Below are positions 49,413 through 60,905 of a stretch of DNA of 64,000 nt, piece by piece; position 1 is the stretch's first letter, and each line of letters starts with the position of its first letter. The notes under the pieces were generated by a model. It had not been told where the DNA came from and did no database searches. It saw only the letters and a program-made list of their open reading frames with translations. The translations under genes were made by a program, and so were the position numbers. The stretch is taken from assembly GCF_024506435.1 (NCBI RefSeq), contig NZ_JANIET010000001.1, forward strand, positions 1,364,001 through 1,428,000, in the 5' to 3' direction. This stretch comes from Pantoea trifolii (GTDB lineage Bacteria; Pseudomonadota; Gammaproteobacteria; Enterobacterales; Enterobacteriaceae).

Positions 49413-50855
49413 CTATACCCCAATCTGCCCAATATTGACATACTGCGTTTCCAGATATTCCTCCAACCCCACATCCGCACCTTCACGTCCCAAACCTGAC
49501 GCCTTCACGCCGCCAAACGGTGCCACTTCGGTGGAAATAATCCCTTCGTTCACGCCCACCATGCCGCTTTCAAGCTGTGGCGTGACGCGCAGCGCGCGGG
49601 CTAAATCACGCGTCCACAGATAAGCCGCCAATCCATATGGCGTGGCGTTAGCGCGCGCGATCACCTCATCTTCAGTGGTGAAGCGGAAGCAGGCGGCTAC
49701 CGGGCCGAACGTTTCCTCATGCGCCAGCAGCATCTGCTCATTGGCATCGGCGAGCACCGTGGGCTGATAGAAACTGCCACCCAGCGCATGACGCTCACCG
49801 CCGCACAGCAAACGTGCACCATGCTGCATCGCATCCTTAACATGGGTTTCAACTTTCTCCATGGCGCGCCGATGGATCAGCGGTCCTTGCTGCGCGCCTG
49901 GCGTCAAACCCGGTGCCACTTTCAATGCCCGCGCCGCATCGGCCAGTTTATTGACGAAACGATCGTAAACGCCGTCCTGCACGTAAAAGCGATTCACGCA
50001 AATACAGGTTTGCCCGCTGTTGCGGAATTTTGCCGCCATTGCGCTTTCTACCGCTGCATCAATATCCGCATCGTCGAACACGATAAAGGGCGCGTTGCCG
50101 CCTAATTCCAGCGACAACTTCTTCACCGAACTGGCGGCATCACGCATCAACAATTTCCCCACCGCCGTTGAGCCGGTGAAGGAGATTTTGCGTACGCGAT
50201 CGTCATGCGTCAGCGTATGGCCAATCTCCACCGTGGCGCCGCTCACGGCATTCAGCACGCCCGGCGGTACACCGGCTTGCTCCGCCAGCACCAGCAAGGC
50301 AAAAGCCGACAGCGGCGTTTCATTGGCGGGTTTGACGATGGCGGTACAACCTGCCGCCAGCGCTGGGCCCAGTTTGCGCGTCAACATCGCCAGCGGGAAA
50401 TTCCATGGCGTGATGGCAGCGACCACACCAACCGGCTGTTTCAGCGTCAGGATCAGATTGCCCGCTTTGGTGGACGGAATGGTTTTGCCGTTGGCGCGCT
50501 TGCCTTCTTCGGCGAACCATTCAATAAAGCTGGCGGCGTACAGCACTTCGCCACGCGCTTCGGCCAGCACTTTGCCTTGTTCCTGCACCACCAGTTGCGC
50601 CAACGCTTCCTGGTTTTCTACGATCAATTGATACCAGCGCTGCAAAATCACCGCGCGTGCTTTGGCGGTCAGGGCGCGCCAGGCGGGCAGCGCAGCAGTA
50701 GCCGCATCAATCGCACGGGTGGTTTCGGCTTCACCCACGTGAGCAACGTGCGCCACCACGCTATCATCGGCTGGATTATTCACCTCATAGGTGCGCTCGC
50801 TCTCCAGCCATTGTTCATTGCAGTACCAGCCGGTCCGTAGCAGTGAAGTTGTCAT
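49413..50855 (-). CDS. NAD(P)-dependent aldehyde dehydrogenase (GabD/succinate-semialdehyde type)
   Basis: Aldehyde dehydrogenase of 480 residues. The cofactor-binding region ITPWNFPLAMLTRKLGPALAAGCTAIVKPANETP lies near 146-180 and FTGSTAVGK near 225. The glutamate is in LELGGNAPFIVFDDADID and the catalytic cysteine in NSGQTCICVNRF (about residue 286). It is closest in pattern to GabD-type semialdehyde dehydrogenases. It ends the leftward operon ygcS-fae-like-AKR-ALDH. Its start overlaps the aldo/keto-reductase stop (ATGA). It likely oxidises an aldehyde produced in that pathway; the substrate is uncertain. Confidence 0.88.
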   Translation of the reverse strand: MTTSLLRTGWYCNEQWLESERTYEVNNPADDSVVAHVAHVGEAETTRAIDAATAALPAWRALTAKARAVILQRWYQLIVENQEALAQLVVQEQGKVLAEARGEVLYAASFIEWFAEEGKRANGKTIPSTKAGNLILTLKQPVGVVAAITPWNFPLAMLTRKLGPALAAGCTAIVKPANETPLSAFALLVLAEQAGVPPGVLNAVSGATVEIGHTLTHDDRVRKISFTGSTAVGKLLMRDAASSVKKLSLELGGNAPFIVFDDADIDAAVESAMAAKFRNSGQTCICVNRFYVQDGVYDRFVNKLADAARALKVAPGLTPGAQQGPLIHRRAMEKVETHVKDAMQHGARLLCGGERHALGGSFYQPTVLADANEQMLLAHEETFGPVAACFRFTTEDEVIARANATPYGLAAYLWTRDLARALRVTPQLESGMVGVNEGIISTEVAPFGGVKASGLGREGADVGLEEYLETQYVNIGQIGV

Positions 50856-51898
50856 GCAATATTCCTCGCAGGTTGAATCTGATCGGCAAACACCGTGCGT
50901 GCCGCGCGGCTGTGGCGGGTAATGCGTTTACCGGCGGTGTAGTCGTTAATTACATCGCATGGCGTGTAATTGCGTTCCAGCTCGAAACGCTCTTCGCTAT
51001 CCAACGGCGTATCCAATGCGGCAATCGCGCTATCCAATTGCGCTACGCTGTCGGCCCCGACCAGCATCGCATCCACGCCGGGGTGGGACAGCACCCAGGC
51101 TTGCGCGATTTGCGCGCTGGAAAGTCCACGCGCCGCCGCCACGCGACCCACCGATTCGGCGATCTGTAATGAGGCTTCATCACCATACATTTCGCGAGTA
51201 AAGAAGTCGGTTTGATTGCGCACCGACTGCACATCGCCGCTCAGCAAACCGCGCGCTAACGGACTGAACACCGAGACGCCCAACCCCTGATCGCGGCAGA
51301 ACGGCAGCATTTCACGCTCCTCTTCGCGATAGGCACAGTTAAGCTGCAACTGCATGTTGATGGGTTTAACGAAACCGTTGCGCTCGCAGCACCACAAAAT
51401 CTTCGCCAGCTGCCAGCAATACATGGTAGAGACGCCGACATAGCGCGCCTTGCCGCTGCGCACGATGCTGTTCATCGTCTCCCACGTCTCTTCGATCGGC
51501 GTATTCACATCGAAATAGTGCAGCATATACATATCGACATAATCGGTGCCGAGGCGACGCAAGCTGCCGTCAATGCTGTCGAGGATGTGCTTACGCGAAT
51601 GGCCCTGATTGTTGTGCCCGCCGCCAAGCGGATAACCGACTTTGGTGGTCAGCACCAGTTCGTCGCGTTGTGCCACGCGCTTCAGCACGCGGCCCACCAC
51701 CTCTTCACCGGCTCCGCTGGAGTAGAAATCAGCCAGATCGATAAAGTTAATGCCGTTCTCCAGCGCGTGACGAATGATCGGCTCACTCTGCGCTTCATCA
51801 AAAATCCACGGTTTCCAGCTCTTGCTGCCCATGTTCATGGTGCCGAGACAAAGACGGGATACGCGTAAACCGCTGTGGCCGAGATTGATGTATTCCAT
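50852..51898 (-). CDS. Aldo/keto reductase
   Basis: NADPH-dependent aldo/keto reductase of 348 residues with the TIM-barrel family tetrad: Asp/Tyr in FIDLADFYSSG near residue 54, Lys in LTTKVGYPLGG near 83, and His in YMLHYFD near 123. The N-terminus MEYINLGHSGLRVSRLCLGTMNMG is typical of the YajO/Tas group. The C-terminal cofactor region is present. The ATG at 51898 is chosen because upstream frames run into the fae-like gene. It is coupled to the downstream aldehyde dehydrogenase by overlapping codons. The sugar or aldehyde acted on is unknown. Confidence 0.88.
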   Translation of the reverse strand: MEYINLGHSGLRVSRLCLGTMNMGSKSWKPWIFDEAQSEPIIRHALENGINFIDLADFYSSGAGEEVVGRVLKRVAQRDELVLTTKVGYPLGGGHNNQGHSRKHILDSIDGSLRRLGTDYVDMYMLHYFDVNTPIEETWETMNSIVRSGKARYVGVSTMYCWQLAKILWCCERNGFVKPINMQLQLNCAYREEEREMLPFCRDQGLGVSVFSPLARGLLSGDVQSVRNQTDFFTREMYGDEASLQIAESVGRVAAARGLSSAQIAQAWVLSHPGVDAMLVGADSVAQLDSAIAALDTPLDSEERFELERNYTPCDVINDYTAGKRITRHSRAARTVFADQIQPARNIA

Positions 51899-51911
51899 GC
51901 TGCAACTCCTG

Positions 51912-52412
51912 TTACTTCGGGGTATAGAACGGATTGCCCAACTGCGGCAGCGCCTGCTGCAACTGCTGGCGCCCCGGTAATTTTTCCATTGCCGCCTCAA
52001 TGGCCACCGTGCAGGCGCGATAGTTATTGGCGAACACCTCATCCAAATCAGTACAGCCTGGATTCACCCAGTTGGCCGTGACGATGCACCACTCATCTTC
52101 GGCTTCGGCGGGCAGCGTACCTTTCAGCAGCGCCTCGGTGACCGCTTTGGCAATCGCCGCCTGCGAAGCGCCCCAGGTGGCGTTGCCGTGCAGTTCGCCA
52201 TCAATTGCGGCTTTATTTACATACAAGGTCATGGGTTTGGCCGGCACATTGGGTTTAATCACCACCATAAATGGACAGTGCCCTTGCGACGGTGTCGCCA
52301 GGCTGGTGGAGAACGCCTGTCCCACCACGCCGTCACGCGGTCCAATCATGATATTGATGTGCGAGGCATTCACGCCGTCGCCTGCAAAACCTTCACCGAT
52401 ATACATTTCCAT
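51912..52412 (-). CDS. Formaldehyde-activating enzyme (Fae) family protein
   Basis: Protein of 166 residues with the Fae fold. The N-terminal block IGEGFAGDGVNASHINIMIGPRDG matches the [22 protein letters not shown] pattern of methylotroph Fae, including the catalytic histidine (His18). The KPNVPAKPMTLYVNKAAI segment matches the APNL-CKP-T-FNK block. Classic Fae condenses formaldehyde with tetrahydromethanopterin, a cofactor enterobacteria are not known to make, and no C1 genes are nearby. It lies in a carbohydrate-type operon between ygcS and an aldo/keto reductase, so it may act on another carbonyl compound. ATG 52412 (or 52415) follows GGGAGG. Confidence 0.8.
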   Translation of the reverse strand: MEMYIGEGFAGDGVNASHINIMIGPRDGVVGQAFSTSLATPSQGHCPFMVVIKPNVPAKPMTLYVNKAAIDGELHGNATWGASQAAIAKAVTEALLKGTLPAEAEDEWCIVTANWVNPGCTDLDEVFANNYRACTVAIEAAMEKLPGRQQLQQALPQLGNPFYTPK

Positions 52413-52424
52413 CATTGCCTCCCG

Positions 52425-53789
52425 TTACAGCTGTTGCGTTGAAGTTGAAGCGTGCGGGCTGAGCGACTTGTCAGCCGGCGGTGTGTCTTGTGACGCGTCG
52501 GTTAGCGTCAATCCTTTGGTTTCAGGTGCCCAGGCGATGGAAACCAACGCGCCCAGCACCAGAATCGCGGCCAGTAACGCCATGGTGCCGCCGATGCCGT
52601 AATTCACGATCGCCAGCGGCAGCAACAGCGTGCCGACCGCCGATCCAAGGCGGCTCATTGAGGTGGCGAAACCCACGCCGCGTGAGCGCACATCCGTTGG
52701 GAAACTTTCGGCGGGGAAAACGCCAACCAGGTTGCTCACTGCCGACATCACCAGGGTGAAAGCCGCGAACAGCACAATTAGCCAGACGCCCGCGCTGTTG
52801 TGCAGCAGACTCAGCAGCAACAAGCAGGCGGCGAGGAAGATGAACGAGCCAATCAGGAAGCCGCGACGTGAACACATGGCGGTAAGCACAATGCCCAACA
52901 CCGCGCCGACCAATAACAGGCCGCTCAACAGCAAATCGGTGGCGAAACCCTGATCCAAACCCATCTGACGCAGAATCGCCGGCAGGAAGGTGTAGATGGC
53001 GAAGTACGGGATCACCAGACAGACAAAGAACAAGCAGTTAAAGGCGGTGCGACGACGATAGCGCGGGCTGAACAGCGCGCTCAGGCCGCCATCGGGCGCG
53101 TGCTGGCGCTCTTCCGGCAAGGTCACATTCGGGCCAAACAGACGCGCGACAATCGCCAGCGCTTCGTCCCTTCGCCCACGTCGCAGTAGCCAGCGCGGGG
53201 ATTCCGGCGTGCCGATGCGCAGTAGCAGAATCGCCAGCGCCGGTAGCGCCGAAGAGGCGAGCAGCCAGCGCCAGCCGTCAGCATGCGCGTTGAGCGCCAG
53301 ATGTCCGGCAAAACTCGCTGCCACATAGCCAACCGTCCACAACACGCTGAAGGCGCCAAGTAGCACGCCGCGATGCTTACGCGGCGCAAACTCCGCCAGA
53401 ATGGTGTGACCGACGGCGAAGTCGCCGCCGAGGCCGAAGCCAATCAGCACACGTAGCAGGAACAACTGCTCTGCCGACTGTGCAAAGAACTGCATGCCGG
53501 AGGCGAGGGTGATGAGAATAAAGCTGAAGCAGAAGATCTTCTGGCGGCCAACGGAATCGGCGATCCAGCCAAGAATCAAGCTGCCAAGAAACAGGCCGAT
53601 TAAGGCGGAGCTGCCAATCATGCCCTGCCAGAACGGCGACAGATTCATTTGCGGCGTCATTTGCGTCAGCGCGAAGCCAACAGAACCGAGGATATAGCCG
53701 TCGGTAAGGTGCGCGCCGAAGGTCAAACCGGTGATTTTGAGGTGAAAGCGATTTAAGGGTACATCATCCATCAGCGTTGTTTGATTCAT
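52425..53789 (-). CDS. ygcS: YgcS-like MFS transporter
   Basis: Major-facilitator symporter of 454 residues with 12 predicted helices. The N-terminus (DDVPLNRFHLKITGLTFGAHLTDGYILG) and the loop motifs GWIADSVGRQKIF and EFAPRKHRGVLLGAFSVLWTVGYV closely resemble E. coli YgcS, whose substrate is unproven. It is first in a leftward operon with the fae-like, aldo/keto reductase and aldehyde dehydrogenase genes. It is divergent from a LysR gene, with a CRP-like site in between, so it probably imports the carbohydrate or acid the operon degrades. Confidence 0.85.
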   Translation of the reverse strand: MNQTTLMDDVPLNRFHLKITGLTFGAHLTDGYILGSVGFALTQMTPQMNLSPFWQGMIGSSALIGLFLGSLILGWIADSVGRQKIFCFSFILITLASGMQFFAQSAEQLFLLRVLIGFGLGGDFAVGHTILAEFAPRKHRGVLLGAFSVLWTVGYVAASFAGHLALNAHADGWRWLLASSALPALAILLLRIGTPESPRWLLRRGRRDEALAIVARLFGPNVTLPEERQHAPDGGLSALFSPRYRRRTAFNCLFFVCLVIPYFAIYTFLPAILRQMGLDQGFATDLLLSGLLLVGAVLGIVLTAMCSRRGFLIGSFIFLAACLLLLSLLHNSAGVWLIVLFAAFTLVMSAVSNLVGVFPAESFPTDVRSRGVGFATSMSRLGSAVGTLLLPLAIVNYGIGGTMALLAAILVLGALVSIAWAPETKGLTLTDASQDTPPADKSLSPHASTSTQQL

Positions 53790-53913
53790 GTTCCTTCCTT
53801 CTGGGTTGGAGAGATGATTGTTATTTTATTGTTATCTGGATGCGAAATTACTGTGGCATTTGAACGGGGTGCAGGCGAGTGCGAAAAAGTCATACCCCTA
53901 TTCCGCAATTTCC

Positions 53914-53929
53914 TGTGATTGCTCTCATA
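53914..53929. promoter_or_regulatory. CRP-like site between ygcS and the LysR gene
   Basis: TGTGA-TTGCTC-TCATA differs from the TGTGA-N6-TCACA consensus by one base in the second half. It lies in the 222-bp divergent region, 125 bp upstream of ygcS. Confidence 0.45.
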
Positions 53930-54011
53930 AAATTGGCGTTTGATTCTCCCTGGCTGAAAGGGCTGTGGTTACATTGGCGCAACATTTCACCCATGTCTGC
54001 CGGAGGCAGAG

Positions 54012-54929
54012 ATGAGAAAGTTACCTTCTCTCAATATGTTGCGGCTGTTCGAAGAGACCTGTCGCACCCTGAGCTTTAGCAAAGCCGCCGATGCGCTGTT
54101 CATGACGCAGAGCGCCGCCAGTCGACAGATGCGTCAGCTGGAAACCTTCCTCGGCAAAGATCTGTTCGTGCGTAGCCATAGCGGTTTGCTGCTTACACCG
54201 GAAGCGATCCAACTGCTGCCGGTGGTGCGCCAGTCGCTGGATTTGCTGGAAGAGGGCGTGCGCGGCGTACAGCAGCACAACCCGCGCCAGCACCTGCGTT
54301 TGCAGGTTGCGCCTACTTTTGCCACGCGCTGGTTAGCGCCACGGCTGGTTACGCTGCGTCAACAGCATCGCCATCTGCAAATCATGCTGATCAGTGAAGC
54401 GCGCCAGAAATACAGCGACTTTGACTGCGCTATCCGCTTTGGATCGCAGGAAGAGGCGCAGGTGGCGGGTGGAGAAGGGGAATGGCTGTGTCATGAAACC
54501 CTGGTGCTGGTGGCCAGTCCGCTGCTGATGCTGGATGGGGCCTGGCCGGATATCAATTTGATGCCGCAGTTGCACATTCTCAATGGCGACAGCCGGCTGG
54601 ATAACTGGGCGCGCTGGTGTCAGGCTTGCAGTGAAGCCCCGGTGCTGGAAGATAACGGGCTGGCCTTCAGTACTCAGGATCAGGTGATTAACGCCTGCGT
54701 GACGGGCGCGGGTTATGCGGTGCTGGATCGTGCGATGGTGCGTAATGAACTGAACAACGGCGTGCTGGTGCAGGTATCGCCACAGATGCTCGCCAGCGCA
54801 AACGGTTATTGGCTGGAAGTGCCGGGCGGCAAACAGACGCTGCCGCGTGTTACCGTATTTCGCGATTGGCTGTTGACGGAGATGCAGCGTTTTAACTCTG
54901 CCGCGCCGATTGCCACGATGACGCTTTAA
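54012..54929 (+). CDS. LysR-family regulator (GcvA type)
   Basis: LysR-type regulator of 305 residues. The HTH (LPSLNMLRLFEETCRTLSFSKAADALFMTQSAASRQMRQLETFLG) is at residues about 4-62 and is of the GcvA/AmpR style. The effector domain follows. It is divergent from the ygcS operon and 18 bp upstream of ygcP, with which it is likely co-transcribed. It probably activates the ygcS-fae-AKR-ALDH operon. Longer frames to the left are not supported by a ribosome-binding site; GGAGGCAGAG precedes the ATG at 54012. Confidence 0.88.
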   Translation: MRKLPSLNMLRLFEETCRTLSFSKAADALFMTQSAASRQMRQLETFLGKDLFVRSHSGLLLTPEAIQLLPVVRQSLDLLEEGVRGVQQHNPRQHLRLQVAPTFATRWLAPRLVTLRQQHRHLQIMLISEARQKYSDFDCAIRFGSQEEAQVAGGEGEWLCHETLVLVASPLLMLDGAWPDINLMPQLHILNGDSRLDNWARWCQACSEAPVLEDNGLAFSTQDQVINACVTGAGYAVLDRAMVRNELNNGVLVQVSPQMLASANGYWLEVPGGKQTLPRVTVFRDWLLTEMQRFNSAAPIATMTL

Positions 54930-54947: not shown

Positions 54948-55523
54948 GTGGATTTAGTTGAGTTGTTAAAGAACGCGCCGGTGGTGGCGGCGGTGAAAGA
55001 TGCGCAAAGTCTGCAGCAGGCGCTGGATTCACCTTGTCAGGTGGTATCGGTGCTCTACGGCAACATTTGCAACATCGGGCGTATCGTTGGACAGATCAAA
55101 CAGGCCGGAAAAATGGCCTTCGTCCATGTCGATCTGCTGGAAGGCAGCTCGCGTCAGGAAGTGGTGATTCAGTTTCTGAAAATCGTCACCCAGGCGGATG
55201 GCATCATCAGCACTAAACCGGCGATGCTGAAAGCCGCGCGCCAGCACGGATTCTGGGCGATTCACCGGCTCTTCGTGCTCGACTCCATCTCCTTCAACAA
55301 CATTGAGAAGCAAGTGGCGCAGTCAGCGCCGGATATTGTTGAAATCCTGCCTGGCTGTATGCCGAAAGTGCTGGGCTGGATCACCGAACGCATCAGCCAG
55401 CCGATCATTGCCGGCGGGCTGGTGTGCGATGAAGAGGATGCACGTCTGGCGCTGGCAGCTGGCGCGCTGGCGGTGTCCACGACCAATGCCAGCGTGTGGC
55501 CATTGGCTGCCGGTATTTCGTAG
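54948..55523 (+). CDS. ygcP: YgcP, GlpP-family transcription antiterminator
   Basis: Protein of 191 residues, nearly the length of Bacillus GlpP (192), with its TIM-barrel-like fold. Conserved blocks are NAPVVAAVKD, VSVLYGNICNIG, FVHVDLLEG, DGIISTKPAMLKAARQHG, RLFVLDSIS, EILPGCMPKVL, PIIAGGLVCDEEDA and ALAVSTTN. GlpP binds glycerol-3-phosphate and prevents termination in leader RNA. YgcP, its E. coli homologue, is uncharacterised. No glp genes are nearby. The adjacent yqcE-ygcE and ygcW-ygcU transcripts both begin with a shared terminator element (58281-58331 and 58566-58619), which are the obvious RNA targets. Translation starts at GTG 54948 after AAAGGGGGTG. A phospho-sugar made by the YgcE kinase is a likely ligand. 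Confidence 0.88.
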   Translation: MDLVELLKNAPVVAAVKDAQSLQQALDSPCQVVSVLYGNICNIGRIVGQIKQAGKMAFVHVDLLEGSSRQEVVIQFLKIVTQADGIISTKPAMLKAARQHGFWAIHRLFVLDSISFNNIEKQVAQSAPDIVEILPGCMPKVLGWITERISQPIIAGGLVCDEEDARLALAAGALAVSTTNASVWPLAAGIS

Positions 55524-55543
55524 GGTGCGCATTCATGCGCACC
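55520..55543. repeat. Variant REP-like palindrome
   Basis: GTAGGGTGCGCATTCATGCGCACC has the same layout as the GTAGGGTCGCCAT family but with TGCGC in place of TCGCC, changed symmetrically in both arms so the hairpin is kept. It lies between the convergent ygcP and ygcE genes. Confidence 0.75.
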
Positions 55544-55547
55544 GGTT

Positions 55548-56984
55548 TTATCCGAGGTTGCTTAACCGCTGTAGCAGCGGATCCAGCGCAGCATGCAACT
55601 GCTGATAAACATGCTGGTTCAGTTGCTGATAGTGCGCATGATGTGCGGCGTTGGGCATGAAGGTCTCGCCTGGCTGCACCAGCGCTGTCACCGCATCGGC
55701 GTAATCTTGCCACACGCCAACCGCCATGCCCGCGCTGATGGCACAGCCGATCGCCGCTGAACTGCGCATGGCATTACGTCGTGCTGGCACGCCAAAGATG
55801 TCGGCAAACAGTTGCATAAACAGATCGCTATTGGCACCGCCACCCGAAATCACCAGCTGCGCCAGCGGGCGCTCCAGCGCCTGCATCATCGGATCCAGAT
55901 GATTCTTCATCGTGAACACAATGCCCTCCAGCAGCGAGCGGAACAGATGCGCGCGCGTATGGCGGCCATCGAATCCGATGATTGCCCCTTTGCGCCACGG
56001 TGCGTGCGCCGGTGCTGCCCAATCATGTAGTGTGATCAACCCGTTGCTGCCCGCGGCCACACGGCTGGCTTCGGCACTTAGCAAGCTCTCAATGTCGATG
56101 CCGCGATCCTGCGCATCCTGGACAGCGGCGGCGCCAAACTGATCGCGGAACCAGCTGATGGTCCACATGCCGCGCCGCACGCCCATGCATTCGTAGAGAA
56201 AACGTTGTGGCAGCGCGGCCTGAAACGGCCAGAAGTGATCGCTACTGCGCGGGGTTTCATCGCCGTGCACCATCGCACCGATATACGTGCCGAGTGAGAT
56301 CAGCGCTTCATTATCGGCTAACGCACCCGCGCCCAAGGCTTCCACCGCTTTATCATGCGCGGTTGCCACAATCGGCAGGCCTTGCGGCAGGCCGCTGGCT
56401 TTGGCGGCGGCAGACGTTACCTGACCGAGTACGTCGCCCGGCCGCACCACATCAAACAGCTGTTCGCGGCGCAGATTGCAGGCTGGCATCTGCAGGTTAT
56501 CCCAATCCTGGCGCACATCATCCATCGGCCAGCAGCCGATATAATTGGCGCTGGTATCGCGCGTTTCGCCGGTAAGACGATGGGTGATATAGCCGGATGT
56601 GGTGGTGATCCAGCGAACGTCGCCATAAGCCGTTTCGTGCTGATAAGGCTGATTGAGACGCACATCCATCCAGTTGATCACCGGCCAGGCCAGTTCACCG
56701 TCAGCGCGCATTAGCACACGGCAGCAGCGGATCACGCACAACCCGGCGGCCAGCAGCTGATGCGGTTGCCCGCCCAGCTGGTGAAAACGCAGCATTGCCG
56801 CGCGACAGGCTTGTTGCACCGATGTCCAGAGATCGTCTTCAGGATGTTCAGCACGGTTTGGCTGCGGAATAGCCAGCGCGCGCAGTGGTTGCTGAGCACT
56901 GCACAGCATCTTGCCATCGGTTTGGAAGATCACCACTTTGGCACTTTGCGTGCCCACATCGATGCCCATCAAATAGCCAGACAT
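55548..56984 (-). CDS. ygcE: YgcE-like FGGY carbohydrate kinase
   Basis: Sugar kinase of 478 residues of the FGGY family. The N-terminal phosphate-binding GIDVGTQSAKVVIF is near residue 8, and the C-terminal ATP-binding LVISGGGANSDLFMQLFADIFG is near 385. The substrate-side WMDVRLNQPYQHET and TAHDKAVEALGAG segments are present. The order yqcE-ygcE divergent from ygcW matches E. coli, where the substrate is unknown. Its start is 1 nt after the yqcE stop, so it is co-transcribed with the transporter. Its phosphorylated product is a candidate ligand of the YgcP antiterminator. Confidence 0.87.
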   Translation of the reverse strand: MSGYLMGIDVGTQSAKVVIFQTDGKMLCSAQQPLRALAIPQPNRAEHPEDDLWTSVQQACRAAMLRFHQLGGQPHQLLAAGLCVIRCCRVLMRADGELAWPVINWMDVRLNQPYQHETAYGDVRWITTTSGYITHRLTGETRDTSANYIGCWPMDDVRQDWDNLQMPACNLRREQLFDVVRPGDVLGQVTSAAAKASGLPQGLPIVATAHDKAVEALGAGALADNEALISLGTYIGAMVHGDETPRSSDHFWPFQAALPQRFLYECMGVRRGMWTISWFRDQFGAAAVQDAQDRGIDIESLLSAEASRVAAGSNGLITLHDWAAPAHAPWRKGAIIGFDGRHTRAHLFRSLLEGIVFTMKNHLDPMMQALERPLAQLVISGGGANSDLFMQLFADIFGVPARRNAMRSSAAIGCAISAGMAVGVWQDYADAVTALVQPGETFMPNAAHHAHYQQLNQHVYQQLHAALDPLLQRLSNLG

Positions 56985-56985
56985 A

Positions 56986-58257
56986 TCAGACTCCTTTTGC
57001 CAGCGCTGTCGCAGCCGCGACGCGCTTGATTTGTCCCATTAATAATGCGGTAAACACCAGCACCACCACGCTGGCCGAGGCGCCCATCATCCACATATTG
57101 CGATAGGCGAGAGCGGGCGGCAGCGTATCCTGCCAGTGGCCAATGATCGGGTAGACGAAGACATCCGGCAGAAAACCAATCACCGAACAGATGCCGATGG
57201 TGGTGCCCAAAATTTGTTTTGGCGTATTCACTTCGCCGATGCAGGCAAAGTAGAGCCCGCGCGAGGCATAGCAGGTAAAGGCCATCAACAGAATCAGGCC
57301 AATCGCCAGCACTAAACTTACCGGTTGCCGGGTAACCAGCCACAGCAGAATCAGCGTGGTGAAACTCACGAATGCGAATACCTGTATCACGCGCGTTGGC
57401 GAGCGCCAGCGGCTGTAGCTGGTGAGCATACCGCCCATTGGGCCACAAATGGCGCGAAACACTTTGTTGATGATGATGCCCATATAGCTGGCGGCGACCA
57501 GCGACATGCCGTAAATCTCTGAGAGATAGTTGGTGGAGTAGCTGAGAATAGCGTAAAGCGTATAGACGCCGAAGATGATCATGCTGCAATACCACGTGGT
57601 GGGCATTTTCAGCACGCGCAGCGCATGTTGCAGGCTGAAGGCAGATTGTGCCTCGTCGCCGCTCTGGGCAAAGCCATCGCTGACCAGAAACCAGCAGGCG
57701 ATCCCCAGCGCAATATAGGTGCCGCTGTAAATCAGGATCACCGCTTTAAGACTGTTGGGATCGTCCGGATGAAAGCGTGAAAACGCCCACACGGTAAACA
57801 GCGCGAGGCCCATCACGCCGACACCGCGCAGGCCTTCCATCCAGCCCATGATTTTGCCTTGTTCCTCACGCGTGCCGAGCAGCGATGCCGCTTTGATCGA
57901 TACGGCCCACAGCAGCAAAATGGTGGTGATGGCGAAGGCAATCTGAATCAGCAACATCGCCCACAGCGGCGGATAAGTTGCCATAATCATGCCCAATAAG
58001 CCGGTGGCGATCATCGCGCCGGACATCACTTTGCGGTGCGAGAATTTGTCAGAAATGATGCCGCCAGGCGCGTAAAGTAAAATCGCTGTAATACCGAAGG
58101 TGCTCATAATGACACCAATTTCGGTATTGGAAAAACCCATAAATTTCGCCATGGGAATTTGATAGATATAGCGTAAATAGGCGAGATCGAAACTAATGCC
58201 CCCGCTGATGCTTATTACCGCCAGGGTTAGCCAGCGCGTGGTATTTTTAGCGTGCAT
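56986..58257 (-). CDS. yqcE: YqcE-like MFS transporter
   Basis: Major-facilitator transporter of 423 residues with 12 predicted helices in the YqcE/YihN group. Characteristic segments are SGGISFDLAYLRYIYQIPMAKFMGFSN in helix 1, ITAILLYAPGGIISDKFSHRKVMSGAM (motif A), and KIMGWMEGLRGVGVM. It heads the leftward yqcE-ygcE operon. The leader between 58258 and 58331 carries a terminator with the conserved GAGAAAAGTAACTT arm, suggesting control by YgcP antitermination. It presumably imports the sugar phosphorylated by YgcE. Confidence 0.87.
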   Translation of the reverse strand: MHAKNTTRWLTLAVISISGGISFDLAYLRYIYQIPMAKFMGFSNTEIGVIMSTFGITAILLYAPGGIISDKFSHRKVMSGAMIATGLLGMIMATYPPLWAMLLIQIAFAITTILLLWAVSIKAASLLGTREEQGKIMGWMEGLRGVGVMGLALFTVWAFSRFHPDDPNSLKAVILIYSGTYIALGIACWFLVSDGFAQSGDEAQSAFSLQHALRVLKMPTTWYCSMIIFGVYTLYAILSYSTNYLSEIYGMSLVAASYMGIIINKVFRAICGPMGGMLTSYSRWRSPTRVIQVFAFVSFTTLILLWLVTRQPVSLVLAIGLILLMAFTCYASRGLYFACIGEVNTPKQILGTTIGICSVIGFLPDVFVYPIIGHWQDTLPPALAYRNMWMMGASASVVVLVFTALLMGQIKRVAAATALAKGV

Positions 58258-58280
58258 CTCAAATCCCCAAAATTAGAAAC

Positions 58281-58331
58281 AAAAAAAAGAGAAAAGCGTC
58301 CTCTCCGCAATTGCGGAAAGTTACTTTTCTC
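58281..58331 (-). terminator. Leader terminator of yqcE-ygcE, putative YgcP target
   Basis: On the minus strand the element reads GAGAAAAGTAACTT, then the inner perfect hairpin TCCGCAATTGCGGA (58304-58317), then GAGGACG, then CTTTTCTC and eight T residues. GAGAAAAG pairs with CTTTTCTC. The start codon of yqcE is only 24 nt beyond, so reading through is needed for expression. The 14-base arm and the GAG-N3-GCTTTTCTC arm recur in the ygcW leader. Confidence 0.85.
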
Positions 58332-58384
58332 TTCGTCTCAGACAGTAACGGACGCCATTTTTAACACGCAGCTAAGAGTTTGCG

Positions 58385-58402
58385 TTGTGAAGAAAATCAC
58401 AA
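58385..58402. promoter_or_regulatory. CRP box between the divergent yqcE and ygcW leaders
   Basis: TTGTGAAGAAAATCACAA is a perfect TGTGA-N6-TCACA CRP site with an extra matching base on each side. It indicates catabolite-controlled transcription of one or both divergent units. A weaker TGTGA-N6-TCGCT follows at 58499-58514. Confidence 0.8.
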
Positions 58403-58565
58403 AAGCCAGTTTCACTGCGCTCTCGGTTTTATCCTATGTATTTTGTGCGCAGTAAATTATAAGGCGTGATTAGCGCGTACTTTTGTTGCAATAACTTTTG
58501 TGATTACGATCGCTTTTTATTTTTAAATCGCCATGCTAGCGTAATTGGCAGTTACTCGAGATTAG

Positions 58566-58619
58566 GAGAAAAGTAACTTCTTCGCTTCACCGCGAAGGAG
58601 CTTGCTTTTCTCCTTTTTT
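58566..58619 (+). terminator. Leader terminator of ygcW-ygcU, putative YgcP target
   Basis: GAGAAAAGTAACTT (58566-58579), inner hairpin CTTCGC-TTCACC-GCGAAG (58580-58597), GAGCTT, then GCTTTTCTC and a T-run. The outer arms are identical to the yqcE leader, while the inner hairpin has a different sequence but the same position. It ends 29 nt before the ygcW start. Confidence 0.85.
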
Positions 58620-58647: not shown

Positions 58648-59436
58648 ATGATGACGACGGAAGCGCTGGAGAGTTTTTCTCTCGACTTCTTTGGGTTGCA
58701 AGGAAAAAGCGCCATTGTCACCGGCGGCAACAGCGGTCTCGGCCAGGCCTTTGCCGTGGCGTTAGCCAAAGCGGGTGCCAACGTGTTTATTCCGGATCTG
58801 GCGCCAGCCAATGCCGAAACGCGCCAACTGATTGAAAGTTGTGGCGTTCGGGCGGAGTTCATGCAAGCCGATATCACGCAGGCGGGTGAACCGGCACGCA
58901 TTATTGCCGAATGTCTGGAACGCTTTGGCCGGCTGGATATTCTGGTGAATAACGCCGGGATCTGTAAGTTAAATTCGGTGCTGGAATTTGATCGTCAGGA
59001 TTGGGATCCGATGATTCAGGTGAATCTCACCGCAGCATTTGAAATGAGTCATCAGGCGGCAAAAATAATGGTGCCGCAGAAGTCGGGCAAGATAATTAAT
59101 ATTTGCTCGCTCTTCTCCTGGCTAGGAGGACAAGGATCGCCCGCCTATGCCGCCACCAAACATGCGATTGCCGGTTTAACCAAAGCGTATTGTGACGAGT
59201 TAGGCCAACACAATATTCAGGTCAACGGCATTGCGCCGGGTTATTACGCGACGCCGATTACGTTAAATACCCGCAGTAATCCCGAAACCAATCAACGCGT
59301 GCTGGATCATATTCCCGCTAATCGCTGGGGAAATACGCAGGATTTAATGGGCGCGATGGTCTATTTAGCCAGCCGCGCATCAGATTACGTTAACGGTCAT
59401 TTGTTAGTCGTCGATGGCGGCTACCGCGTTCGATAA
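58648..59436 (+). CDS. ygcW: YgcW-like short-chain dehydrogenase/reductase
   Basis: SDR oxidoreductase of 262 residues (E. coli YgcW 261). The cofactor motif TGGNSGLG is near residue 28, NNAGIC near 105, the catalytic serine in ICSLFSWLG, and Tyr-x3-Lys in YAATKHAIAGLTK (about residue 169). It resembles deoxygluconate/gluconate 5-dehydrogenases. The start (ATG 58648 or 58651) follows a near-perfect CCAGGAGGTGAA ribosome-binding site placed just after the leader terminator. It is followed 17 bp later by ygcU. It probably oxidises the imported polyol or sugar acid. Confidence 0.88.
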   Translation: MMTTEALESFSLDFFGLQGKSAIVTGGNSGLGQAFAVALAKAGANVFIPDLAPANAETRQLIESCGVRAEFMQADITQAGEPARIIAECLERFGRLDILVNNAGICKLNSVLEFDRQDWDPMIQVNLTAAFEMSHQAAKIMVPQKSGKIINICSLFSWLGGQGSPAYAATKHAIAGLTKAYCDELGQHNIQVNGIAPGYYATPITLNTRSNPETNQRVLDHIPANRWGNTQDLMGAMVYLASRASDYVNGHLLVVDGGYRVR

Positions 59437-59453
59437 AAATTGAGGAATGAATT

Positions 59454-60905
59454 ATGACGCTTTCACGCGAAGCTATTGTTGAACAATTAAAAGAGATCGC
59501 CGGTCCGCAGCAGGTGATTACCGATGAAGCAGAATTAAAGCGCAGCAGCCACGATCGGTTCCGTAAATATGCCGATATTCACGGCGTGTATACCATGCCG
59601 ATTCCGGCAGCGGTGGTGAAATTACAAAACACCCAGCAGGTTTCCGAAGTGCTGGCCTTTATGAATCGCCACCAGATTAACGGCGTGCCGCGTACCGGCG
59701 CATCGGCTACCGAAGGCGGGCTGGAAACTGCAGCGCCGAATTCAGTGGTGCTGGATGGTTCTGGCATGAATAAGGTTATTAAGATCGATATCGAGAACAT
59801 GCAGGTTACCGCGCAGTGTGGCGTAACGCTGGAAGTGCTGGAAAATCAGCTGCGCGCGCAGGGGTACACCACCGGCCATTCACCGCAGTCGAAGCCTTTA
59901 GCGCAGATGGGCGGCTTGGTCGCCACGCGCAGTATTGGGCAATTCTCCACGCTGTATGGCGCCATCGAAGATATGGTGGTGGGCCTGGAAGCGGTGTTCC
60001 CGAACGGTGACATCACCCGCATCAAAAACGTTCCGCGTCGTGCGGCCGGTCCGGATATCCGCCATGTGATTATCGGCAACGAAGGTGCGCTCTGTTACAT
60101 CACCGAAGTCACGGTGAAAATGTTTAAATATCAGCCAGAAAATAACCGTTTTTATGGCTATCTGCTTGATTCGATGAAAACCGGCTTCGCCATCCTGCGT
60201 GAAGTGATGGTTGATGGCTATCGCCCGTCGATTGCGCGTCTCTACGATCCTGAGGATGCCAATCAACACTTTAGTCACTTCTCGAAAGACAAATGCGTGC
60301 TGATTTTCATGGCGGAAGGGACGCGCGGGATCAGCGAAGCCACCGGGAAAGGCATTGAGGCGATTGTGGCGCAGCACCGCGAATGCCAGCCGGTTGACAG
60401 CAAGCTGATCCAAAACTGGTTCGAAAACCTCAATTGGGGACCGGAGAAAGTGCAGGCCGAGCGCGACTTTATTATGCGCACCGGCAACATGGGCTTCACC
60501 ACCGAAGTGTCGGGCAACTGGTCCACCATTAATGCCATCTACGAAAACGTGCTGAAGCGCATTCGCAACGAATTCCCGCATGCGCAGGACATCACTATGC
60601 TTGGCGGGCACTCGTCGCACAGCTACATCAACGGCACCAACATGTATTTCGTCTATGACTACAACGTGGTGGATTGCCGCCCAGAAGAGGAGATGGCGAA
60701 ATACCATGTTCCGCTTAATGGCATGATTGTGGAAGAGACGCTAAAACTGGGCGGTTCGATGGTGCATCACCACGGCATTGGTAAGCATCGCGTGCAGTGG
60801 GCGAAACAGGAGCACGGCAGCGCCTGGCCGATTTTGCAGGCGCTGAAGACCGCGTTTGATCCGAAGGGGATTATGAATAAAGGCACCATTTTCCCGCAGG
60901 AATAA
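59454..60905 (+). CDS. ygcU: YgcU-like FAD-binding oxidoreductase
   Basis: FAD-linked oxidase of 483 residues (E. coli YgcU 484) of the GlcD/alkyl-DHAP-synthase/VAO group. The PCMH-type FAD domain covers about residues 40-220 (VPRTGASATEGGLETAAPNSVVLDGSGMNKV; GGLVATRSIGQFSTLYGAIEDMVVGLEAVFPNG). The C-terminal FAD-oxidase domain ends GGSMVHHHGIGKHRVQW and DPKGIMNKGTIFP, the usual closing block. It is the second gene of the ygcWU operon behind the YgcP-type leader. The electron acceptor and substrate are unknown. A palindromic repeat follows the stop. Confidence 0.88.
   Translation: MTLSREAIVEQLKEIAGPQQVITDEAELKRSSHDRFRKYADIHGVYTMPIPAAVVKLQNTQQVSEVLAFMNRHQINGVPRTGASATEGGLETAAPNSVVLDGSGMNKVIKIDIENMQVTAQCGVTLEVLENQLRAQGYTTGHSPQSKPLAQMGGLVATRSIGQFSTLYGAIEDMVVGLEAVFPNGDITRIKNVPRRAAGPDIRHVIIGNEGALCYITEVTVKMFKYQPENNRFYGYLLDSMKTGFAILREVMVDGYRPSIARLYDPEDANQHFSHFSKDKCVLIFMAEGTRGISEATGKGIEAIVAQHRECQPVDSKLIQNWFENLNWGPEKVQAERDFIMRTGNMGFTTEVSGNWSTINAIYENVLKRIRNEFPHAQDITMLGGHSSHSYINGTNMYFVYDYNVVDCRPEEEMAKYHVPLNGMIVEETLKLGGSMVHHHGIGKHRVQWAKQEHGSAWPILQALKTAFDPKGIMNKGTIFPQE

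Follow-up and report, generated by a model that had tools for sequence, protein, structure and literature searches.

We analysed a 64-kb window (the whole stretch of DNA under study) of the 5.06-Mb genome of Pantoea trifolii, with a focus on ygcP, a gene for a putative RNA-binding antiterminator, and on the leaders of two divergent operons beside it. Each leader carries a strong intrinsic terminator overlapped by a weak upstream hairpin, an arrangement that we propose to be a switch read by YgcP. The genes of the locus are as follows.

54948..55523, plus strand: ygcP, 191 residues, putative RNA-binding antiterminator, PF04309 (G3P_antiterm) profile score 213.1 bits against a cut-off of 27.
55548..56984, minus strand: FGGY-family sugar kinase at the ygcE position, PF00370/PF02782.
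56986..58257, minus strand: major facilitator superfamily (MFS) transporter, PF07690, counterpart of E. coli K-12 yqcE by position and first gene behind the minus-strand leader.
58648..59436, plus strand: short-chain dehydrogenase/reductase (SDR), KduD-like, PF13561, NF005390 score 330 bits (below the cut-off of 369), ygcW counterpart and first gene behind the plus-strand leader.
59454..60905, plus strand: FAD-linked oxidase, PF01565 and PF02913, ygcU counterpart.

The ygcP gene starts 18 nucleotides (nt) past a LysR reading frame. Its product is 72% identical to YgcP of E. coli K-12 (b2768), which is annotated only as a 'putative anti-terminator regulatory protein', and is placed within a clade of support 100/100 in the protein tree; relatives of solved structure are 3kts and 1vkf. 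At E ≤ 0.001, PF04309 is the only Pfam domain of the protein, and ygcP is the sole match to the family in the whole genome. A reading of the letters alone that preceded this analysis (the sequence-only reading) had placed a GlpP-family antiterminator gene here in a region free of glp genes, and both points hold. None of eight proteins scanned from the region reached the curated cut-off of a glp family in NCBIfam, the FGGY kinase scoring 115 bits against the glycerol kinase family, whose cut-off is 590. The MFS and kinase genes form one operon on the minus strand, and the SDR and FAD-oxidase genes form a second, divergent operon on the plus strand. These four genes are the candidate targets of a YgcP-type regulator, in place of the glp targets of GlpP-type antitermination. 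The nearest named relative at the locus, among 58 listed, is Pantoea sp. SOD02, with a YgcP 98% identical. The kinase is 41-44% identical to those of E. coli-type loci, whereas YgcP, the MFS transporter, the SDR and the FAD oxidase reach about 67-80%; the kinase has perhaps been replaced or has shifted in substrate.

Between the two operons lie two terminators and, overlapping them, two candidate antiterminator hairpins.

58565..58619, plus strand: intrinsic terminator of the SDR-FAD-oxidase leader, found by folding (hairpin 58565-58613, U-run 58614-58619); its 5' arm coincides with the 3' half of the candidate antiterminator.
58281..58331, minus strand: intrinsic terminator of the MFS-kinase leader, found by folding (hairpin 58331-58289, U-run 58288-58281).
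58550..58578, plus strand: candidate antiterminator hairpin of the SDR-FAD-oxidase leader, AGUUAC / loop UCGAGAUUAGGAGAAAA / GUAACU, from arm extraction and an unconditioned complement test.
58319..58350, minus strand: candidate antiterminator hairpin of the MFS-kinase leader, CGUUAC / loop UGUCUGAGACGAAGAGAAAA / GUAACU with the outermost C-U unpaired, from arm extraction.

The two terminators fold to -27.9 and -32.1 kcal/mol (z -5.7 and -6.5), and none of 200 shuffles was as stable. They share GAGAAAAGTAACTT, present at 58318-58331 on the minus strand and 58566-58579 on the plus strand, about 235 bases apart, whereas their inner hairpins differ; both end in a U-run. The pair thus folds as the sequence-only reading had stated for it. 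No further copy of GAGAAAAGTAACTT occurs at up to two mismatches elsewhere in the window, and in 100 dinucleotide shuffles matches averaged 0.05, with two never occurring together. An intrinsic terminator, part of GlpP-type antitermination, is therefore found in the leaders of both target operons. Across 25 sites (alignment A1), the inner terminator helix has 98% standard pairs and 25 double-change cells, a number reached in none of 500 shuffles; the count of inner-helix pairs showing a double change (5) does not exceed what shuffles give (98/500). Such variation of the inner hairpin, which preserves base pairing, is as would be expected of a terminator stem.

At 16-20 nt upstream of the core GUAACU lies its complement, AGUUAC, and a complementary arm precedes each window terminator (58550-58555 on the plus strand; 58350-58345 on the minus strand). 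Because the 3' half of the antiterminator is also the 5' arm of the terminator, the two structures would exclude each other, and the conserved core appears to be one strand shared by two mutually exclusive hairpins. The outer arms seem invariant because their 5' half doubles as loop and 3' stem of the antiterminator. This changes part of the earlier interpretation, in which the identical outer arms marked selection for a protein-binding RNA. The arms are indeed conserved, but as a strand shared with an antiterminator whose 5' half had gone unnoticed; the probable target of the protein is the overlapping upstream hairpin and not the terminator with its inner hairpin.

An exact pattern, GAGAAAAGTAACTT-N6..36-CTTTTCTC, was searched in 198 genomes of the same family and occurred at 25 sites in 15 of them, with the reversed control pattern in none of these. 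The sites precede SDR-FAD oxidase genes or the MFS gene and, in genome G180, the kinase gene; the pattern is absent from all 169 genomes in which PF04309 does not exceed its cut-off. With a covariance model, R1, used to extend the search beyond the exact pattern, two elements each were found in 49 of the 58 named ygcP loci, giving 98 elements (one strand per site, weakest E 1.6e-4) upstream of SDR and MFS genes in Enterobacteriaceae, Erwiniaceae, Yersiniaceae, Hafniaceae and Budviciaceae. The nine named loci without an R1 pair are five from Listeria, one from Bacillus, and L064, L094 and L110, where the available DNA covers ygcP and not the SDR-MFS junction. PF04309 exceeds its cut-off in 29 of the 198 genomes; 15 of these carry the exact pattern and 11 of the remaining 14 an R1 element. 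All 26 genomes with an intact YgcP-type gene therefore have at least one element, in line with the co-occurrence that the sequence-only reading had anticipated. The other three have 29-30% identical homologues (G027, G074) or a ygcP fragment with an internal stop (G190), and R1 found no element in them at E 0.05. In 295 genomes of the order, a sample that overlaps the 198 and was searched with stricter filters, R1 matches at E < 1e-6 occurred in exactly the four genomes with PF04309 over the cut-off, at this locus only. Marginal order-level matches in G473 and G160 were set aside as plain hairpins without an upstream arm.

Two loci in this sample depart from the common layout. G190 (L054), with its interrupted ygcP, has neither a leader element nor the FAD oxidase at E 1e-100 anywhere in the genome, an apparent joint decay of regulator and targets. 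In G155 (L012, about 1440-1610), the SDR-MFS intergenic region is a single nearly palindromic element and the second leader is absent, while two identical copies in inverted orientation are present in its congener G003; the single element would stem either from a deletion between the inverted repeats or from an error of assembly.

Absence of the element upstream of yqcE and ygcW in genomes with ygcP had been set beforehand as one observation that would speak against the proposal. In E. coli K-12 MG1655, both leaders are present between ygcW and yqcE (L291, 12363 on the minus and 12506 on the plus strand), and 5019 of 5426 complete E. coli genomes gave a match to the E. coli query region. When the 401-base intergenic region of the window served as query, a distant BLAST search of E. 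coli returned no match, despite E. coli having the elements. Further afield, five Listeria species and Bacillus sp. DNRA2 encode a YgcP 55-56% identical, together with the same genes, which in Listeria run on one strand in the order FAD oxidase-ygcP-MFS-SDR-kinase. Ahead of the FAD oxidase gene lies a leader with AGUUGC-UAGAGAAUUGAGAUAA-GCGACU followed by a terminator, and G420 (L251), another genome from the Bacillus draw, repeats this layout. These leaders were recognised by reading the sequence, and their predicted architecture is that of the enterobacterial ones, with different but compensating letters. In a tree of 84 proteins, the YgcP-type proteins of enterobacteria, Listeria and Bacillus form one clade of 27 with support 100/100, which includes L108, labelled 'other' by an identity threshold. 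Two Listeria genomes encode a second PF04309 protein in addition to the YgcP-type one, and this second protein falls outside the clade. Its gene adjoins mutL- and ribokinase-like frames, judged by eye (L120, L121); the expression AGAG..GAGAWAAG had no match in the 3.5 kb examined there.

The upstream arm was assessed in two ways. The covariance model that found the elements did not include it, and the complement test, run over the 25 nt upstream of the core, was not conditioned on it; of 100 elements (window included), 89 are distinct. A 5-nt complement of the core was present in 88 of these, compared with a mean of 11.2 and a maximum of 20 for shuffled upstream sequences, and a Watson-Crick-only complement in 68, compared with 2.7 and a maximum of 9. 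For the arm counts, we used 107 elements (98 enterobacterial, two from the window, five from Listeria and two from Bacillus) and extracted the arms by an expression permitting the observed letters, which every element satisfied; pair counts were taken from these arms because alignment A2 misplaces the 5' arm of long-loop elements. The arm pairs were GUUAC/GUAAC in 50 elements, AUUAC/GUAAU in 27, GUUAC/GUGAC in 16, GUUGC/GCGAC in seven and GUUAC/GUAGC in five, with two others, and all five core pairs were standard in 105 of the 107. Among 58 distinct hairpins, there were 16 double-change cells, compared with a shuffled mean of 3.1 and none of 2000 shuffles as high. Within the loop, GAG..GAGA occurs in 107/107 elements, the GAG starts lying 8 nt apart in 82; the second GAGA is part of the extraction rule and the first GAG is not.

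The elements could instead be simple terminators serving to insulate the divergent promoters or to block antisense transcription, with the upstream arm incidental, and they are in fact so strong and nearly palindromic that R1 matches both strands of many. Such a role would leave unexplained the complementary arms, found far above chance, their compensatory changes and the GAG..GAGA of every loop; in G180, moreover, both operons lie on the same strand and each retains its own element. We regard plain terminators as extremely unlikely.

A tandem GAGA loop in a hairpin overlapping a terminator is also the arrangement at GlpP loci, which links the YgcP leaders to the wider PF04309 family. We examined 58 loci outside the YgcP clade, in regions of mostly 16 kb, and located the gene in 57 (54 from Bacillota draws, three enterobacterial). 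When all 256 tandem 4-mers were ranked within 350 nt downstream of the PF04309 gene, GAGA came first, at 37 of 57 loci (random placement mean 2.5, maximum 6), followed by GGAG at 30, which overlaps GAGA, and then mostly by AT-rich words at 23 and fewer. The typical motif is GUGACGGAGAUAAGGAGAAUCAC, and a long reading frame follows shortly downstream at 35 of the 37 GAGA loci. Ten of these next genes were scanned: nine are glycerol genes, five of them over the curated cut-off, comprising three MIP-family channels (over the cut-off), two GlpK (one over), one GlpA (over), a GlpT and two of glycerol 3-phosphate (G3P) oxidase/dehydrogenase type; the gene downstream in L228 had no NCBIfam match at E ≤ 1e-30. 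In these Bacillota relatives, a tandem-GGAGA hairpin overlaps the terminator ahead of the glycerol genes.

A hairpin detector with control motifs, which replaced a noisy terminator listing for the Bacillota loci, gave a similar picture. In L114-L179 (66 loci, six of them YgcP-type), it retained GAGA at 23 of 80 raw motifs, AGAG at 8/56 (overlapping GAGAG), CTCT at 3/56, TCTC at 1/84, GAAG at 5/126, AAGG at 3/117 and GGAA at 2/152. In L224-L282 (59 loci, most from the same genomes), the counts were 42/274 for GAGA, 12/207 for AGAG, 6/200 for CTCT, 5/293 for TCTC, 26/638 for GAAG, 12/487 for AAGG, 22/730 for GGAA and 9/385 for AGGA. Within 350 nt downstream of the gene, it found 20 GAGA hairpins, in 20 of 57 loci, and 0-2 for each of nine control motifs; elsewhere GAGA, at 21, was near background (controls 5-25). 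The GAG-to-GAG spacing was 8 nt in 28 of 42 detected hairpins outside the YgcP clade. Their closing stems are diverse in letters and complementary (31 distinct, mean score 5.81; permuted mean 3.92, maximum of 1000 permutations 4.77). Some Bacillota loci have two tandem GGAGA hairpins or motifs, as in L263 (G282), at 286 and 3299 on the minus strand, and in L282 (G290), and a regulon could there extend past the neighbouring gene. The distant enterobacterial homologues are L224-L227 (G027, G074, G002 and G061); that of G027 is adjoined by a kinase-like match, 23% identical to the window kinase, with the same frame start in L224 and L226.

The shared loop also bears on whether the leaders could be riboswitches that read a small molecule directly, with ygcP a mere neighbour. 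Alternative hairpins and a conserved loop are equally typical of riboswitches, and the module travels whole, so that linkage to ygcP is not independent evidence. The aptamer would however be a hairpin loop of 16-20 nt with about ten fixed letters, and the same tandem GAGA at the same spacing stands before glycerol genes beside PF04309 genes. In the window, no Rfam family reached its gathering score and matches at E up to 10 were all sub-threshold, which also removes a known Rfam riboswitch or leader family as a candidate; Rfam searches of L068, L099, L103, L108, L257, L263 and L266 gave four matches, none at the leaders in question. GlpP itself is described as an RNA-binding antiterminator (PMC9604022, PMC7430163). 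A riboswitch is, in our view, very unlikely. We also considered PyrR-like loops, which we take the letters CAGAGA to resemble, and dropped them, as no PyrR-type domain was matched in YgcP.

The region between the leaders contains the following candidate control elements.

58386..58401, no strand assigned: CRP site TGTGAAGAAAATCACA, between the leaders, 10/10 consensus letters in a consensus scan.
58534..58542, plus strand: candidate extended -10-like element TGCTAGCGT, suggested by column counts.
58357..58366, minus strand: candidate extended -10-like element TGTTAAAAAT of the MFS-kinase operon, suggested by column counts.

A CRP site with at most one mismatch is present in 50 of 50 intergenic regions and perfect in 33, against a shuffled mean of 0.31. 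A genomic SELEX study (systematic evolution of ligands by exponential enrichment; PMC3105977) lists ygcW<>yqcE among the targets of CRP, as had been predicted earlier (PMC1794230). Upstream of the antiterminator arm, T at -16, G at -15, T at -13 and A at -12 each occur in 67-87 of the 107 leaders and resemble an extended -10, from which we infer a transcript start at or near the arm; a sigma-70 consensus scan of the window returned no promoter. RNA-seq and northern blot detected a small RNA of E. coli K-12 that lies on the yqcE strand, upstream of that gene, and varies in amount with the medium (PMC4681348). It shares strand and side of yqcE with the K-12 leader, and fits what a terminated leader would look like. 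It was published as a possible small RNA, and the accessible text states neither a role for it nor a link to a leader, a terminator or YgcP (PMC4681348).

The terminators, alternative hairpins, covariation, conserved loop, co-occurrence, CRP sites and likeness to the glycerol leaders of GlpP loci, all read from sequence, lead us to consider it highly probable that each leader is an attenuation switch, in which effector-bound YgcP would stabilise the antiterminator and so let both operons be read; YgcP binding, its ligand and the direction of control we infer. By default, the strong intrinsic terminator would form and RNA polymerase would halt after about 60-70 nt, since the terminators (-28 and -32 kcal/mol) far exceed the antiterminators (about -1 to -7 kcal/mol) in stability unless the upstream hairpin is held. 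Effector-loaded YgcP would grip the purine-rich loop, with its two GAG(A) boxes, of the weak AGUUAC..GUAACU hairpin as this leaves the polymerase. The held hairpin would sequester the terminator 5' arm GAGAAAAGUAACU, the terminator would not form, and both divergent operons would be transcribed. CRP probably activates both promoters, in which case expression would need glucose to be absent and the substrate present. Sharing GlpP's family and loop type, YgcP is the natural candidate reader. Its effector is probably the phosphorylated compound that the FGGY kinase of the same pathway makes, because GlpP senses G3P, itself the product of an FGGY kinase, and the proposed YgcP regulon also includes such an enzyme.

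YgcP might instead act at these leaders mainly on mRNA stability, or promote termination as a repressor. Two activities are reported for GlpP, binding of the antiterminator and stabilisation of glpD mRNA (PMC7430163). Since the conserved loop is part of the hairpin whose formation excludes the terminator, a protein bound to it should promote read-through; the layout also resembles that of GlpP loci, where GlpP acts on a terminator in the 5' untranslated region (PMC9604022). A primary effect on stability or as a repressor is thus highly unlikely, and we retain antitermination by YgcP.

Several observations weigh against the switch or against YgcP as its reader. The outermost, sixth antiterminator pair is standard in just 35 of 58 distinct sequences, and the numbers of pairs with a double change (2) and of further pair types (5) were equalled in 795 and in all of 2000 shuffles, respectively. 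The E. coli yqcE-side hairpin alone is no stabler than shuffles (z -0.26; the ygcW side has z -2.75), a result to be expected of a hairpin that depends on a protein to hold it; four further folds, of window stretches cut with a shortened 5' arm, were left out of account. The Listeria and Bacillus leaders lie beyond the reach of R1 (L108, 19.6 bits, E 0.58; L251, 17.6 and 14.1 bits), which in one Listeria genome found only an unrelated place at E 0.0075. A -10-like hexamer exceeds the threshold in only 71 of 107 leaders, and PMC3946193 lists different promoter hexamers for ygcW and yqcE. At 20 of the 57 PF04309 loci outside the YgcP clade, no tandem GAGA occurs within 350 nt downstream of the gene, and in the distant enterobacterial loci L224-L227 no such hairpin was detected in about 16 kb each. 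Lastly, the FAD oxidase is present in exactly the same 26 of the 198 genomes, so that ygcP, the oxidase and the elements appear to be inherited together as a single module; their co-occurrence lends support, though not of an independent kind, and taken alone is no proof that YgcP reads the leaders.

GlpP of Bacillus subtilis, acting on glpD, glpFK and glpT, is the closest precedent. It is a G3P-dependent antiterminator whose site and inherent terminator lie in the 5' untranslated region of three promoters (PMC9604022). The two cases share a PF04309 protein and a leader with an inherent terminator, and have a transporter or channel, an FGGY kinase and an FAD enzyme among their known or candidate target genes. 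The YgcP case differs in its separate clade (100/100), in its MFS, FGGY kinase, SDR and FAD-linked oxidase candidate targets, in its loop, mostly YnGAGAYnAnGAGAAAA compared with GGAGAnnnGGAGA at GlpP loci, in its two divergent leaders around CRP sites, and presumably in its ligand. The weak, protein-bound ribonucleic antiterminator (RAT) hairpins of BglG and LicT likewise overlap and exclude an intrinsic terminator, but their RNA letters differ and the protein is unrelated; we rejected BglG/LicT-type antitermination for this locus, as YgcP shows PF04309 and neither a CAT RNA-binding nor a PRD domain (E ≤ 0.001). In the open PubMed Central literature, we found no RNA target of YgcP and no GGAGA element named with GlpP, subscription papers being outside this scope; ygcP is named in some papers, for example PMC8228696 and PMC1599756.

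YgcP thereby gains a precise candidate RNA target, two candidate target operons and a mechanism testable in E. coli, and the E. coli small RNA beside yqcE gains a possible explanation. The leaders suggest protein-dependent antitermination of the GlpP type in Gram-negative bacteria, point to the class of substrate that the ygcWU / yqcE-ygcE pathway handles, and suggest a recognition element common to much of the PF04309 family. We lean, by a little, towards a broader proposal: that a hairpin loop carrying two GAGA boxes at 8-nt spacing serves much of the family as its common RNA target, from GlpP of Bacillota to YgcP of Enterobacterales, with stems, targets and effector exchanged, and that the YgcP branch senses the product of its own FGGY kinase, controls a complete carbohydrate-acid pathway in E. 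coli and its relatives, and has moved between Bacillota and Enterobacterales with its RNA switches.

Divergent to lysR-ygcP, in the stretch 49413-54929, lies a gene for a formaldehyde-activating enzyme (Fae, PF08714; 51912-52415, minus strand), a kind of gene unusual beyond methylotrophs. It is flanked by an aldo-keto reductase gene and a ygcS-like transporter gene, with an aldehyde dehydrogenase gene nearby. The complete set of aldehyde dehydrogenase, aldo-keto reductase, Fae, MFS, LysR and ygcP genes is present at 10 of the 58 named loci, in Pantoea, Erwinia, Serratia and others.

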